A DNA stretch of 23,686 nucleotides, from the NCBI GenBank assembly GCA_027061995.1, contig JAMOUT010000092.1, forward strand, positions 1 through 23,686, read 5' to 3'. A model generated the notes under the pieces. That model did no database searches. It was not told the origin of the DNA and was given only the letters and a program-made list of their open reading frames with translations. The translations under genes were made by a program, and so were the position numbers. This DNA comes from Candidatus Aminicenantota bacterium (GTDB taxonomy: Bacteria > Acidobacteriota > Aminicenantia > JAMOAD01). This document shows, piece after piece, positions 3,325 through 20,923 of the stretch (within the stretch, counting starts at the first letter, position 1; every line of letters begins with the position of its first letter).

Positions 3325-3969
3325 CTACTTTTTCTTTGCTCTGACTTTTGCTTTAAATTTTATTTTACCGTCTTTTATCTCATAATCAAGGGAGAACTCC
3401 TTATCCTCCCCGAATTTTTCCTTAAGCTTTGTTAATTTTGATTTAACGGCTTTTTCAACAACCGAAAGATCGGAAATTTTCGATTTATTATTAACGAGGT
3501 CTTCAAAAATCCTTTTGGATAAATCCTCCGCCGTTTTATCAAGAGTCTTGGCTTGAACTTTAACTTTTCTATTTTTGGGAGATTTATTTTTAGGGACAAT
3601 AGTCTGTTTTTTTCGGTGTTTTTCATTCCACAGCTTTTCCTCCTCAAGCATATGCTCTCTCATCTCCTTAACCCTTTTGGCATCCGCTGTTCCATATTCA
3701 TAATACATCTCAAGTTTTTTATCCCAAAGAGATTTATAAAGGTTGTATCTTTGAACCAAATTAGAGATTCTAAATTGAAGAGAAGGGGCATATCTGTTTC
3801 TTGTTATAAGCCTAATCATATTCTCAAGAGCCGTTCGTTTTTTCTCGGGAGGAATTCTTAATTTTTTTGTAAAATAAAGCTGGTATTCATGATCCAACTC
3901 TTCCATATGAAACTTTATTTTTTCGATCATACCTTTAACTTCCGCTATTGTTAGAAACCTTTCCGCCAC
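3325..3969 (-). CDS. Conserved-looking unknown protein, charged and helical (possibly MXAN_5187 C-terminal-like)
   Basis: 214 aa, very rich in Lys and Glu and predicted to be almost wholly helical. Residues 58-85 (RNRYAPSLQFRISNLVQRYN) are the most conserved-looking part and resemble my memory of the MXAN_5187 C-terminal family of deltaproteobacteria, whose role is not known; that link is a recollection, not a search result. A lysine-rich linker at about 120-142 is followed by a second domain of helix plus beta strands (about 145-210) ending in a basic tail. The start is a GTG that shares one base with the TAG of the upstream gene (TAGTG), a typical coupled junction. No signal peptide or membrane segment is seen. 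The position between orf115 and a lipid kinase gives no clear clue to function. Confidence 0.7.
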   Translation of the reverse strand: MAERFLTIAEVKGMIEKIKFHMEELDHEYQLYFTKKLRIPPEKKRTALENMIRLITRNRYAPSLQFRISNLVQRYNLYKSLWDKKLEMYYEYGTADAKRVKEMREHMLEEEKLWNEKHRKKQTIVPKNKSPKNRKVKVQAKTLDKTAEDLSKRIFEDLVNNKSKISDLSVVEKAVKSKLTKLKEKFGEDKEFSLDYEIKDGKIKFKAKVRAKKK

Positions 3970-10411: not shown

Positions 10412-12754
10412 ATGGGTGAGTATAATAGTTATATAAAAATAGCTCTTGCTTTAATTGCGGTTTTGATTTTCGTTAAATTCGTCCAATCTCTTTTTCACTC
10501 AATTAAACTTTCCGAAATTAGGGATAAATCATTTTTATCAACTTTTTTTGATCAGTTTTTTAAAAAAACCGTTTTGATAAATAATGCAAAAAAAGCTTTA
10601 AGAAAAGAGGATTTTGTAACCGCCGGGAAATATTTTGAAGAAGCTGGAGAATTCCCGCAGGCTATTTCCGCCTACGAAAAAGGGAATGAATACTATAGTT
10701 TGGCAAAACTTTTTGAAAACATGAAATTAACAAGAAAGGCAGCCATAAATTATGAAAAGAGCGGTTATCTTAGGGAAGCTGTCAGAATATATAAAAAGAT
10801 GGGGGATAATCTATCCGCTGCAAGAATTTTAGAAAAAAATCAACAGTATGAAGATGCTGCGGATCTATATATGTCGGCAAAAAAATATGATGAAGCGATT
10901 AAGATCTTCGAGAAATTCGGCTACCATAATTATATAGGCAAAGCTTATGAAAAACAGGGGAAATATAAACAAGCTGCGGATGCTTATCTTAAATGGTTTA
11001 AACACATGAATGAATCAAGAATAACCTCCATTGAGATAACGGAGGAGGTTCTTAAATATCTGTTGAAAGCAGCTGATTTATATGTTAAGGTCGGTGAAGT
11101 CGAGAGAGCTATCGGAATTTTGGAAGATGAGGGGATATACGATAAAGCGGCAAAACTATGTGAAACTCACGGAAAATTAGATAAAGCGGCTGAACTTTAT
11201 GAATTAAACCATGATTATAAAAATGCTGCGGAAATATATTTAAAAGCAAATAAAGAGGAAAGAGCTAATCTTATGTTTGCCGATTATTATTATGAAAAAG
11301 GGGAAACACTGTCTGCCGCAAAATATTATTATCTGTCGGGAGATTATGGAAGAGCTGCGGAATTATTCGAGTGGGAGAGAGACTATGAAAAAGCGGCGGA
11401 GGCGTATAGAAAAAATGAAAGCTATTCTTCTGCGGCTGAAAATTACTTAAGAATCGGGAAAAAGGAGATTGCTGCGGAATTATTCATGCTTGGGAATGAA
11501 TATCTTAAAGCAGCGCATATTTACCGTGAGTTGGGAGAATTATCAAAAGCGGGAAATGCTTTTCTTATGGCACAGGATTATTTTAATGCGGGTTTATCAT
11601 ATTATGATAGTGGAAATGCAAAAAAAGCTATTGAATCATTTCAAAAGGTTGATATAAATGATAAGAATTATCATTCTGCAATACTTTTCATCAGTAAGAT
11701 TTTTCTTGCCAGTGGAAAATTGGAACTTGTGTTAAGCACTTTATCAAAATATCTTGAGAATAGACCTGTTTCCCTTGAAACTATAGATCATTATTATATT
11801 TTCGCCCTTGCTTACCAAAAATCGGGAGAATATGAGAAAGCTATTGAACTTTATAAATTGATTCAAGCTGTTAATTTTGATTATAAAGATACTCAAAAAT
11901 TGATAGAGGAAGCTTCTAAACAGATGTCGGAAAAAAAGCAATTAGAATTAGTTAATTCTACCGGCGAAGGAAATATGAGATATAGAATAATAGAAAAAAT
12001 CGGTGAAGGTGGAATGGGACAGGTTTATAAAGCGGAAGATAAAGTTCTGAAAAGGATTGTTGCTCTTAAAGTTTTAAAGAGTAGCTCTATAAGCGGAACC
12101 AAAGCGGAAAATAAGTTTTATTCGGAAGCACAACTTGCGGCCAAGATGAATCACCCCAATATTGTTACTGTTTATGATGTTGGAATGATAAAAGATCAAC
12201 CTTTTATTTCAATGGAATATATAGAAGGGGATAATTTTATCTCTCTTCTGAAAAGAAGAAAAAGATTTAATTTTAAACAAATCGTATTCGTCGCTTCTTA
12301 TCTTTTTAAAGCTCTTGAATATGCTCACAAAAAAGGGATTGTTCATAGAGATATCAAACCGCAAAATATTATGTTAACTAAAGATAAACAGATAAAAATA
12401 ATGGATTTCGGACTCGCAATTATCAAAGATGAATTTAGCACGGATGATAATATAATAGCGGGAACACCTACCTATATGTCTCCCGAGCAAATAAACGGCT
12501 CGAGTCTTGATAATAGAACTGATATATATTCGGCCGGAATAACGCTTTTTCATCTTACGGCGGGATATCCCCCTTTCAAAGGGGAAAATGTGGCTAATCA
12601 ACATCGCTTTGATAAAGCCCCTTTATTATCGAGCATAAGAGAGGATATACCTATGGAATTTTCTAAATTTGTTGAAAAATGTATAGAAAAAAATAAAGAA
12701 AACAGGTTTACATCGGCATCCGAAGCTCTTCTTGTTCTGAAGAAGATGAAATAA
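10412..12754 (+). CDS. Membrane-anchored TPR-repeat Ser/Thr protein kinase
   Basis: 780 aa. Residues 8-26 form one transmembrane helix and the rest should be cytoplasmic. From about 50 to 510 runs an array of short helical repeats of the form AAELYExxGDYxKAAE, a TPR-like solenoid expected to bind protein partners. A complete Hanks-type kinase follows (522-780): glycine loop GEGGMGQVYKAE, VALK lysine near 554, catalytic HRDIKPQN near 645-652, DFG near 665, TPTYMSPEQ activation segment and DIYSAG. All catalytic residues are present, so it should be active. The order (membrane, TPR, then kinase) is the reverse of the common bacterial kinase-TM-sensor plan. It starts 3 nt after porB with no clear ribosome site, so it is probably co-transcribed with the oxidoreductase. 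Its target is unknown. Confidence 0.88.
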   Translation: MGEYNSYIKIALALIAVLIFVKFVQSLFHSIKLSEIRDKSFLSTFFDQFFKKTVLINNAKKALRKEDFVTAGKYFEEAGEFPQAISAYEKGNEYYSLAKLFENMKLTRKAAINYEKSGYLREAVRIYKKMGDNLSAARILEKNQQYEDAADLYMSAKKYDEAIKIFEKFGYHNYIGKAYEKQGKYKQAADAYLKWFKHMNESRITSIEITEEVLKYLLKAADLYVKVGEVERAIGILEDEGIYDKAAKLCETHGKLDKAAELYELNHDYKNAAEIYLKANKEERANLMFADYYYEKGETLSAAKYYYLSGDYGRAAELFEWERDYEKAAEAYRKNESYSSAAENYLRIGKKEIAAELFMLGNEYLKAAHIYRELGELSKAGNAFLMAQDYFNAGLSYYDSGNAKKAIESFQKVDINDKNYHSAILFISKIFLASGKLELVLSTLSKYLENRPVSLETIDHYYIFALAYQKSGEYEKAIELYKLIQAVNFDYKDTQKLIEEASKQMSEKKQLELVNSTGEGNMRYRIIEKIGEGGMGQVYKAEDKVLKRIVALKVLKSSSISGTKAENKFYSEAQLAAKMNHPNIVTVYDVGMIKDQPFISMEYIEGDNFISLLKRRKRFNFKQIVFVASYLFKALEYAHKKGIVHRDIKPQNIMLTKDKQIKIMDFGLAIIKDEFSTDDNIIAGTPTYMSPEQINGSSLDNRTDIYSAGITLFHLTAGYPPFKGENVANQHRFDKAPLLSSIREDIPMEFSKFVEKCIEKNKENRFTSASEALLVLKKMK

Positions 12755-17790: not shown

Positions 17791-19929
17791 ATGAGAGATA
17801 ATGGAAAACTTATTCAAAAAAGGGATGGCAGGTATGCACCTTTTGATGAAACCAAAATTTTTAATGCGATTTACAAAGCATTTAAAGCTGTAGGGAAAAA
17901 GGATGAAAATACGGTTTTATATATTTCCAAAGAGGTTGTTAAAATTATAGAGGAACATTATTTTAATTATGGTGTTACTCCGAGTGTAGAAGATATTCAG
18001 GATCTCGTGGAAAAGGTTCTTATTGAAAAAAATGAAGCGGCGGCTGCCAAATCTTATATTCTTTACAGAGAAAAAAGATCCGAATTAAGAGATATAAGAC
18101 AGAATTTTCTTGATGGTATCAAGGTTATAGATGAATATCTTAGTATGAAGGATTGGAGAGTCAAGGAAAACTCCAATATGTCATATTCATTACAAGGACT
18201 GAACTTGCATATATCTTCAACTCTTGTTGCAAAATATTGGTTAAGGAAATTATATCCTCTTGAAGTTAGAATGGCTCATGAAGAGGGAGATTTTCATATC
18301 CATGACCTCGGGATACTCGGACCTTATTGCGTGGGATGGGATCTTGAAGACCTTTTGAAAGTCGGTTTTACAGGAGCAAGAGGGAAAATCGAATCAAACC
18401 CTGCAAAGCATTTTAGAACAGCTCTCGGACAGATAGTAAATTTCTTTTATACTCTTCAAGGGGAAGCCGCCGGAGCTCAGGCTTTTTCAAATTTTGACAC
18501 CCTTCTTGCACCTTTTGTCAGATATGACGGATTATCTTATAAGGATGTAAAACAGGCTCTTCAGGAATTTGTTTTTAATGTTAATGTTCCCACAAGAGCA
18601 GGTTTTCAAACCCCTTTTACAAATATTACAATGGATCTTGTCCCACCTTCAACTTTAAAAGATAAAGCTGCCATTGTAGGGGGAAAAGAGATGCAAGAAA
18701 CTTACGGTGAATTTCAGAAAGAGATGGATATGATAAACAGTGCTTTCGCCGAAGTTATGATGGAGGGAGATGCAAAAGGGAGAATATTTACTTTCCCGAT
18801 CCCGACTTATAATATTTCCAAGGATTTTGAGTGGGAAAACGATGATCTTAAACCCTTATGGGAGATGACAGCAAGATACGGAATTCCGTATTTTGCCAAT
18901 TTTGTTAATTCCGACATGGACCCCGAAGATGCAAGATCAATGTGTTGCAGATTAAGGCTTGATAATAGGGAGTTGTGGAAAAGGGGCGGCGGACTTTTTG
19001 GTGCGAACCCTCTTACAGGTTCAATAGGCGTTGTTACCATTAATCTTCCGAGAGTTGCCCATATAGCGTCCAATGAAAATGAGTTTTTCAGTCTTCTCGA
19101 AGATAGGATGGACCTTGCGGTCGAAGCTTTGGAGATAAAGAGAAAAAATGTTGAAAGATTCACTGAAGCTGGTCTTTACCCTTATACAAAATTTTATTTA
19201 AGAGAGATAAAAAAGACTCATGGTAAGTTTTGGAACTTCCATTTTTCAACGATAGGATTAGTCGGAATGAATGAATCAATGATTAATTTTCTCGGAAAAG
19301 ATATAACCGATCCCGAGGCAAAGGAATTCTCAATAAAAGTTTTGGATTTTATGAGAGATAAAATTCAAAAGATTCAGGTGGAAACCGGAAATATGTATAA
19401 TTTGGAAGCCACTCCCGCCGAAAGCACAGCTTACAGGCTTGCCAAAGCCGATTTAAAAAGGTATCCGGGGATTAAAACAAGCGGAGCATCCGAACCTTAC
19501 TATACAAACTCGGTTCACCCACCTGTTGATGCTTATAATGATGCTTTTGAACTCCTTGAACATCAGGATGACCTTCAAATAAAATTTACCGGAGGAACGG
19601 TTGTTCACCTGTTTTTCGGAGAAAATATAAAAGATTGGAGAGTTGTCAGAGAACTTACGAAAAGAATTTCATCCAAGTTCAGATTACCCTATTTCTCGTT
19701 TACCCCCACTTTCTCAATATCTCCTGTCTCAGGATATATTGCGGGTAAACATAATTTCGACCCTAACCCCGTTAAAGAGGAAGATATTGATAAGTTCGGA
19801 GTGGTCGTGGAGATGACGGAAGAGGAGCTTGCTAATTTACCTGAAGGCTCCTATATAAAAATAGAGGAAGAAGAGGAACCAAATAATAGTTCGGAAGATA
19901 AAGTAAGCTTTAATTTAAAGCTGAACTAA
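17791..19929 (+). CDS. nrdD: Anaerobic (class III) ribonucleoside-triphosphate reductase, catalytic subunit without glycyl-radical tail
   Basis: NrdD reduces ribonucleotides to deoxyribonucleotides without oxygen. The 712-aa chain has an N-terminal ATP-cone (about 6-95, beginning IQKRDGRYAPFDETKI) for allosteric control and the barrel core with active-site cysteines in SMCCRLRLDNRELWKRGG (Cys near 385-386). Two things are odd. First, at about 640-660, where related enzymes read FSICPxHGY...CPxC and bind zinc, this one reads FSISPVSGYIAGKHNFDPNP, with no cysteines. Second, the chain ends in an acidic tail without the glycyl-radical motif, which is on the next gene. I chose ATG 17791 after AAAGGAGG; an in-frame TTG at 17740 is really the promoter -35. 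Transcription is likely under NrdR. Confidence 0.93.
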   Translation: MRDNGKLIQKRDGRYAPFDETKIFNAIYKAFKAVGKKDENTVLYISKEVVKIIEEHYFNYGVTPSVEDIQDLVEKVLIEKNEAAAAKSYILYREKRSELRDIRQNFLDGIKVIDEYLSMKDWRVKENSNMSYSLQGLNLHISSTLVAKYWLRKLYPLEVRMAHEEGDFHIHDLGILGPYCVGWDLEDLLKVGFTGARGKIESNPAKHFRTALGQIVNFFYTLQGEAAGAQAFSNFDTLLAPFVRYDGLSYKDVKQALQEFVFNVNVPTRAGFQTPFTNITMDLVPPSTLKDKAAIVGGKEMQETYGEFQKEMDMINSAFAEVMMEGDAKGRIFTFPIPTYNISKDFEWENDDLKPLWEMTARYGIPYFANFVNSDMDPEDARSMCCRLRLDNRELWKRGGGLFGANPLTGSIGVVTINLPRVAHIASNENEFFSLLEDRMDLAVEALEIKRKNVERFTEAGLYPYTKFYLREIKKTHGKFWNFHFSTIGLVGMNESMINFLGKDITDPEAKEFSIKVLDFMRDKIQKIQVETGNMYNLEATPAESTAYRLAKADLKRYPGIKTSGASEPYYTNSVHPPVDAYNDAFELLEHQDDLQIKFTGGTVVHLFFGENIKDWRVVRELTKRISSKFRLPYFSFTPTFSISPVSGYIAGKHNFDPNPVKEEDIDKFGVVVEMTEEELANLPEGSYIKIEEEEEPNNSSEDKVSFNLKLN

Positions 19930-19950
19930 ATTTAATTAGGAGGTAATACA

Positions 19951-20157
19951 ATGGAGAGTATTATGGAAAGAGAGGAGACTAAGGCTGTGGAAACAAAAAG
20001 AAAGGTAAGAGTGAAAGTTGTTCCTACCGAAATTTATTCAAGAGTGGTAGGATATTACAGACCTGTCCAAAATTGGAACAAAGGTAAAGCCGAAGAATTT
20101 AAACACAGGGCAAGCATTGATCCGAATCACCCTGTTAAAAAAAGAATAGAAATTTAA
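19951..20157 (+). CDS. Separate glycyl-radical polypeptide of the anaerobic ribonucleotide reductase
   Basis: 68 aa. Residues 27-53 contain TEIYSRVVGYYRPVQNWN followed by GKAEEFKHR, which is the usual C-terminal glycyl-radical segment of class III reductases; Gly34 would be the radical site made by NrdG. It is in the same frame as nrdD but separated from it by two TAA codons (19927 and 19933) and has its own AGGAGG seven bases before ATG, so it is a real separate gene and not a frameshift. No cysteines are present, so the zinc ribbon that normally precedes the radical site is missing here too. It probably works with the upstream subunit in trans, somewhat like the YfiD spare part of pyruvate formate-lyase. 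The start region is charged and variable. Confidence 0.8.
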   Translation: MESIMEREETKAVETKRKVRVKVVPTEIYSRVVGYYRPVQNWNKGKAEEFKHRASIDPNHPVKKRIEI

Positions 20158-20227: not shown

Positions 20228-20923
20228 ATGTTAATTAAAGGTTTTCTTGGAACAAGCTTAATTGATTATCCGGGAAAAATTTCCGCTATTGTTTTTACGG
20301 GGGGGTGCAATTTCAGATGTCCCTTTTGCCATAATTCGGATCTTGTCATAGCGCTTGATACTTTACCTACCATAACTGAAGAGGAATTTTTCAAAAAGAT
20401 TGATAAAAGGAGAGGATTTATAGACGGGATTGTTATTACAGGAGGAGAACCTTTAATTAACAAAGATATATTAAATTTTATTGAAAAAATAAAAGAGAGA
20501 GAGTTTCTTGTAAAACTTGATACAAACGGTTCTTTCCCCGAACTGCTCAATGAAATATTAGACGCTGATATAGTTGATTTTATCGCAATGGATATAAAAT
20601 CATCTCCGGAAAAATACAGTATGGCTTCAGGTGTAAAAGTTGATTTATCGAAAATTGAAAAATCAATAGAACTCATAATGAAAAAATCCCCCGATTATGA
20701 ATTCAGAACAACCGTAGTGCCGGGAATAACGGAAGAGGAGGATATGATTGATATGGTTAAAATGATAGAGGGGGCAAAATCATATGCTATTCAACAATTC
20801 AGACCCATGAAAGTCATAGATCCTCGGTATCTAACAATTAAACCTTTTCCTCATGAAAAATTATTAAGATTCGTAGAGATCATCACCCCTTTTGTTAAAA
20901 AGGTTGAACTGAGAGAAGAATAA
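20228..20923 (+). CDS. nrdG: Anaerobic ribonucleoside-triphosphate reductase activating protein (radical SAM)
   Basis: 231 aa. The CxxxCxxC cluster motif is GGCNFRCPFCHN with Cys27, 31 and 34, preceded by SLIDYPGKISAIVFT, which is typical of NrdG-type activases. GGEPL near 74-78 binds the SAM amino group. The protein uses a [4Fe-4S] cluster and SAM to form the glycyl radical, here on the separate 68-aa polypeptide. It is longer than E. coli NrdG and closer to the 220-240 aa anaerobic type with a fuller barrel. ATG 20228 follows AAGGA; the gene lies 70 nt after the glycyl-radical gene, behind a hairpin. Confidence 0.93.
   Translation: MLIKGFLGTSLIDYPGKISAIVFTGGCNFRCPFCHNSDLVIALDTLPTITEEEFFKKIDKRRGFIDGIVITGGEPLINKDILNFIEKIKEREFLVKLDTNGSFPELLNEILDADIVDFIAMDIKSSPEKYSMASGVKVDLSKIEKSIELIMKKSPDYEFRTTVVPGITEEEDMIDMVKMIEGAKSYAIQQFRPMKVIDPRYLTIKPFPHEKLLRFVEIITPFVKKVELREE

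Follow-up and report, generated by a model that had tools for sequence, protein, structure and literature searches.

The window, the whole 23,686-nucleotide stretch that was analysed (contig JAMOUT010000092.1 of a Candidatus Aminicenantota bacterium), carries a class III ribonucleotide reductase (RNR), an anaerobic enzyme that supplies DNA precursors, whose catalytic subunit is encoded in two pieces (Table 1). The glycyl-radical loop, which is of the RVxGY type, is present as RVVGYYRPVQNWN, carrying Gly34, on a separate 68-aa chain. Barrel and radical loop are thus located on different polypeptides, with stop codons and a new start between them, and this split is conserved. The initial annotation, made from the sequence alone, had described the small radical gene as lying in the frame of the core, after two stops and with a new AGGAGG and ATG, which is correct, and its assignment of both chains to NrdD is borne out by profile searches. 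Both match the Pfam family NRDD, the core over profile positions 1–521 of 562 (5.1e-176, 587 bits) and the 68-aa ORF over positions 533–560 (33.5 bits, against a cut-off of 26.2), and the core also matches the NCBIfam NrdD profiles PRK08270 (2e-300) and TIGR02487 (502 bits, against a cut-off of 326). Elsewhere in the window, positions 10412–12754 encode a 780-aa protein in which many TPR-like repeats precede a Ser/Thr protein kinase domain; its gene adjoins a pyruvate:ferredoxin oxidoreductase-type gene set. A 214-aa ORF at positions 3325–3969 has no Pfam match.

Table 1 Features of the split nrdD locus (positions are those of the window)
Feature	Positions	Strand	Details
nrdD core gene, class III RNR without glycyl-radical loop	17791..19929	+	712 aa; ATG 17791, TAA 19927-19929
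ATP-cone of nrdD core, residues 7-98	17809..18084	+	PF03477, 4.1e-22
NxN flap motif N127-S-N129 of nrdD core	18169..18177	+	ENSNM invariant in 18/18 split cores
Cys180, conserved active-site cysteine of nrdD core	18328..18330	+	invariant in alignments
Finger-loop double cysteine C385-C386 (MCCR)	18943..18948	+	invariant in alignments A3 and A4
Metal-less zinc-ribbon remnant FSISPVSGYIAGKHNFDPNP	19711..19770	+	S, S, D, V replacing C, H, C, H; loss pattern shared by 7 genomes
C-terminal extension of nrdD core, common to split clade	19771..19926	+	predicted: residues 663-690 folded, then acidic disordered tail
Intergenic stretch	19927..19943	+	TAA stop of core; further in-frame TAA at 19933-19935; AGGAGG (Shine-Dalgarno) at 19938-19943
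Small glycyl-radical subunit gene, 68 aa	19951..20157	+	own ATG 19951; Gly34 codon 20050-20052
nrdG2, radical-SAM activase	20228..20923	+	TIGR02495 NrdG2, 4.5e-64, above cut-off

The catalytic cysteines of the barrel and the finger loop (C180, C385 and C386) are all present and invariant in the alignments, and the activase that such an enzyme requires as a partner is encoded 3' of the small ORF in the form of NrdG2. When core and small chain are joined, these three are the only cysteines, all at active-site positions, and a ribbon cysteine occurs in neither chain, as had been claimed from the first reading. In fused relatives the C-terminal ribbon has the form FSxCxxHGYxxGxxxxCPxC; the core in the window reads FSISPVSGYIAGKHNFDPNP at this place, and the zinc-binding ligands are absent, with S/S/D/V at the C/H/C/H positions. 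Throughout the zinc-less group, the Cys-His-Cys-His set that is found in CPYPH-type cores is replaced together by S, S, D and V or by comparable residues. That C, H, C and H disappear in concert suggests a former ligand role for the four residues.

A scan of 142 genomes of the class to which the window belongs found the zinc-less split in 7 genomes, namely in each of the five sampled from the family of the window and in two from another family, which answers the question raised at the outset as to how many genomes share it. In the zinc-less relatives, NrdG2 likewise adjoins the split nrdD. The start of the small ORF is kept in relatives, as is its Shine-Dalgarno sequence where this was checked, and comparison with close relatives yields a pN of about 0.11 and a pS of 0.60–0.81. 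With pN far below pS, the small ORF is, by this measure, under purifying selection. Its frame varies: in relatives it may lie in another frame or overlap with the core, and the stops ahead of it may be two or only one (TAA or TAG). The same-frame layout that was noted initially is thus true for the window but is not conserved. Production of a full-length NrdD by programmed read-through or frameshifting, to which the frame shared by core and small ORF in the window and in some relatives would lend itself, is rejected because the frame differs between relatives; two in-frame stops in the window and the small ORF's own Shine-Dalgarno sequence and start also argue against it, which leaves this explanation very improbable. 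Even though the assembly is a draft of 104 contigs, a decaying pseudogene or a sequencing error has a negligible probability, with the latter ruled out at both stops by an architecture and ligand losses that are identical in 7 genomes from separate assemblies, and with a small ORF under purifying selection in a genome where no other RNR was found.

In the genome from which the window is derived (2.36 Mb, estimated 95% complete), the core and the small ORF are the only matches to NRDD. The initial annotation had proposed a split, zinc-less NrdD with a radical loop acting in trans, and had named a full-length nrdD elsewhere in the genome as the finding that would speak against it; neither such a gene nor another RNR large subunit was found in the genome, and the proposal stands. 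The class I/II catalytic domain PF02867 was detected in none of the five genomes of the family, which are drafts and four of which are 95–99% complete, and a profile search of the window's genome for PF01228 (Gly_radical) proteins was also negative. Since no other RNR was found in the five family genomes, the two-piece NrdD is probably the sole RNR encoded in these draft genomes, and it must work.

Split NrdDs were also found in Thermodesulfobacteriota (Thermodesulfatator, Caldimicrobium and others), in Fermentibacterota and, within the class to which the window belongs, in a third family; their cores end in FSxCPxHGYxxGxHxxCPYPH. In a maximum-likelihood tree of the cores, these CPYPH-type sequences group with the zinc-less split cores in a common clade (ultrafast bootstrap 100, SH-aLRT 98), inside which the zinc-less cores are a single clade (support 100/100). 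The split clade that contains the NrdD of the window spans at least three phyla. Since the sister members retain Cys-His-Cys-His, the tree indicates that the split predates the metal loss, i.e. that the split came first and that zinc was lost later, in one lineage. The two had been read jointly in the initial annotation. A zinc-less split indeed exists and a loop acting in trans is supported, but the two events are separate, and the suggested coupling of zinc loss to the split has to be abandoned: many split NrdDs keep CPxHGY...CPYPH or CPxHGY...CPxC, and one clade lost the ligands.

Further splits (L016, L022 and L024), in which CPxC is kept in the core, stand apart from the main clade and from each other on the tree. 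By this topology there are therefore at least four independent origins of the split, at least three of them besides the clade of the window, and all at one joint. More splits of the CPxC type are found in Thermodesulfobacteriota (L236, L237, L239 and L248). In a sample of this phylum, the match table gives a core that ends at profile position 526–534 for roughly 18 of 129 NrdD-positive genomes, and ten of these roughly 18 short-core loci were read directly. In some Thermodesulfobacteriota the small radical subunits end in cysteine pairs such as GCCR, GCGCG, CACSK and CGCGA (L033, L035, L039, L067, L244 and L251), which are possibly a redox tail. The NrdD cores in the split loci L119, L249, L250 and L251 are 1000–1500 aa long and probably contain inteins.

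The placement of the radical loop was modelled with AlphaFold2 on a single read-through chain, in which both TAA codons were read as Gln, using a 44-row alignment that included fused NrdDs. The joined-chain model has a mean pLDDT of 83.6 and a pTM of 0.80, with mostly 78–92 for the radical domain, whereas the artificial linker at residues 695–734 is disordered (pLDDT mostly under 50). Alignment with VIA-align superimposes 485 residues on T4 NrdD (1h7b) at 2.4 Å, from model 130–761 to chain 26–587, and 563 residues on the P. copri enzyme (8p2s) at 2.9 Å, up to model residue 777. With three T4 entries the end pairs are 761/587, 763/589 and 759/585, and therefore model residue 754, which corresponds to Gly34, is opposite T4 residue 580, which we take to be the radical glycine (Gly580) of T4 NrdD. 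The idea that a predicted structure would place Gly34 in the active site is thereby upheld in part, as Gly34 does lie opposite Gly580, but the fused rows in the alignment and the tether favour that placement. A control with an alignment of split sequences only gave a mean pLDDT of 65.8, the whole model being of low confidence.

New elements are present at the joint. The cores of the clade carry a specific extension, not found in fused NrdDs, with the approximate pattern EE[IL]xx[FY]Gxx[VE]...LxxxSYxx[IV], and its residues 663–690 are predicted to be folded (pLDDT near 90 in the AlphaFold2 model with fused homologues). A strand resembling KVKVxPxEVYSR is common to the small chains and precedes their radical loop; in the window this N-terminal strand reads KVRVKVVPTEIYSR. 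The second type of split keeps the core motif CPxH...CPxC, and several of its members (L016, L022, L026, L236, L237 and L239) are rich in Lys, Glu and Leu at the C-terminus of the core and at the N-terminus of the small chain; these segments are probably helical and may form a paired-helix tether.

Class III RNR is regarded as an enzyme with a one-chain catalytic subunit, in which a zinc finger supports the radical loop. For the window we propose that the enzyme is an obligate two-chain form of class III RNR whose radical subunit acts in trans, a reading to which we assign a probability of about 85%; activation of the free subunit, its docking and the activity of the two-chain enzyme are inferred. 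The 712-aa core would supply the ATP-cone, the NxN flap, the barrel and the catalytic cysteines, and the 68-aa subunit would supply the radical glycine. NrdG2 would generate the glycyl radical on Gly34, and the RVVGY loop of the small chain would enter the mouth of the barrel, bringing Gly34 close to C385/C386 of the finger loop. From this position, the transfer of the radical and the reduction of the nucleotide would proceed as in ordinary NrdD. Since the zinc clamp that joins core and radical piece is lost, the radical piece would have to attach to the core as an external part; the role of the ribbon may be taken over by protein contacts of the metal-less hairpin and the C-terminal extension of the core with the strand KVRVKVVPTEIYSR of the small chain. 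In the P. copri enzyme, for which the NxN flap was described, the radical domain is ordered in the presence of ATP but is not visible in that of dATP (PMC11226230), and the double-cysteine motif is one of two finger-loop types in class III (PMC9669993). Ordinary NrdD thus already has a mobile radical domain, and the separation of this domain can be considered a modest step.

The system in the window is a variant of class III RNR and not a separate kind of system. It has in common with NrdD of T4, T. maritima and P. copri and their NrdG the ATP-cone, NxN flap, barrel, catalytic cysteines, RVxGY loop and adjacent activase, and its predicted fold matches the solved class III structures. Unlike in these enzymes, the radical domain forms a 68-aa chain of its own, metal ligands are lacking and the core possesses an extra C-terminal extension. 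The proposed action of a small glycyl-radical protein in trans on a barrel enzyme resembles that of YfiD/GrcA and T4 Y06I. However, YfiD rescues damaged intact pyruvate formate-lyase, whereas the small chain of the window would be an obligate NrdD-type subunit; it lacks the PF01228 domain, and its genome has neither a full-length NrdD nor a PF01228 enzyme to rescue. Class II NrdJa/NrdJb is also an RNR in two chains with a separate C-terminal region, but it is B12-dependent, and PF02867 is absent from the window's genome. In phages phiAS4, 949 and c-st, nrdD is in pieces as well, but what has been reported there are intron or intein interruptions or fragmentation, and no functional radical-domain gene (PMC3653736). 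No description of a split NrdD, a separate glycyl radical subunit or a core-less phage radical domain was found in a literature search that covered mostly journals without subscription, which is not proof of novelty.

Regarding the reason why the split persists, the main alternative is neutral gene fission, in which a chance break at a flexible joint was tolerated and a particular function of the two-chain form need not be assumed. We consider this somewhat short of an even chance. Several origins, all at the same flexible joint, speak for it, as does the existence of a split class II enzyme, NrdJa/NrdJb (PMC9669993), but the long retention over several phyla and the new conserved elements at the joint, namely the C-terminal extension of the clade and the helix-like tails on both CPxC-type chains, are less easily reconciled with it. 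A functional explanation, which at present appears rather unlikely, is that the small chain can be replaced at low cost: after cleavage by oxygen at Gly34, a freshly activated copy would dock and the 712-aa core would be spared. Pyruvate formate-lyase that has been cleaved by oxygen is served in this way, in trans, by YfiD, and the same study regards comparable spare parts of other glycyl radical enzymes as possible but unproven (PMC8683613). The existence of at least four origins and of free-standing NrdD-type radical domains on phage contigs is consistent with such a function; against it, the gene for the small subunit is single-copy, lies in the nrdD operon and has no extra copy, and no intact NrdD is present alongside that could be rescued.

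The phage domains were found in a scan of viral contigs, which yielded many short, separate NrdD-type radical ORFs. Most of 33 such or similar viral records have no NrdD core, including contigs of 65–87 kb, when the whole records, which are fragments, are searched. Free-standing radical ORFs of 50–120 aa with no core on the record are present on L114, L115, L120, L123, L127, L150, L152, L154, L156, L163 and L166, and further core-less viral contigs with ORFs of this size are L168, L173, L174, L176, L177, L182, L183, L184, L187 and L188. These domains are candidate spare parts for host NrdD. The 138-kb viral contig L170 encodes an NrdD core with probable inteins, in a 1501-aa frame at about 106.8–110.7 kb, and a radical-domain ORF at 127.5 kb, about 17 kb from the core. 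A search of phage records with the small protein of the window gave three records, none of them close, and PHROG profiles gave weak matches to full NrdD families. A broader proposal, more doubtful still than replacement in the window itself, is that the class III radical domain has repeatedly become an exchangeable cartridge, which would be charged by NrdG off the enzyme, swapped after oxygen damage and carried alone by phages so that NrdD activity of the host is maintained or regained; the zinc-less form would then illustrate that a free cartridge can do without the metal joint.

The only RNR found in the window's genome thus has its radical domain as a separate subunit; splits at this joint evolved on at least four occasions, and the metal was lost in one lineage. 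Such an enzyme provides a natural two-part system for asking whether radical installation can take place off the enzyme, whether radical domains are exchanged and whether zinc is needed, and it bears on the question whether spare-part rescue of glycyl radical enzymes extends past pyruvate formate-lyase.
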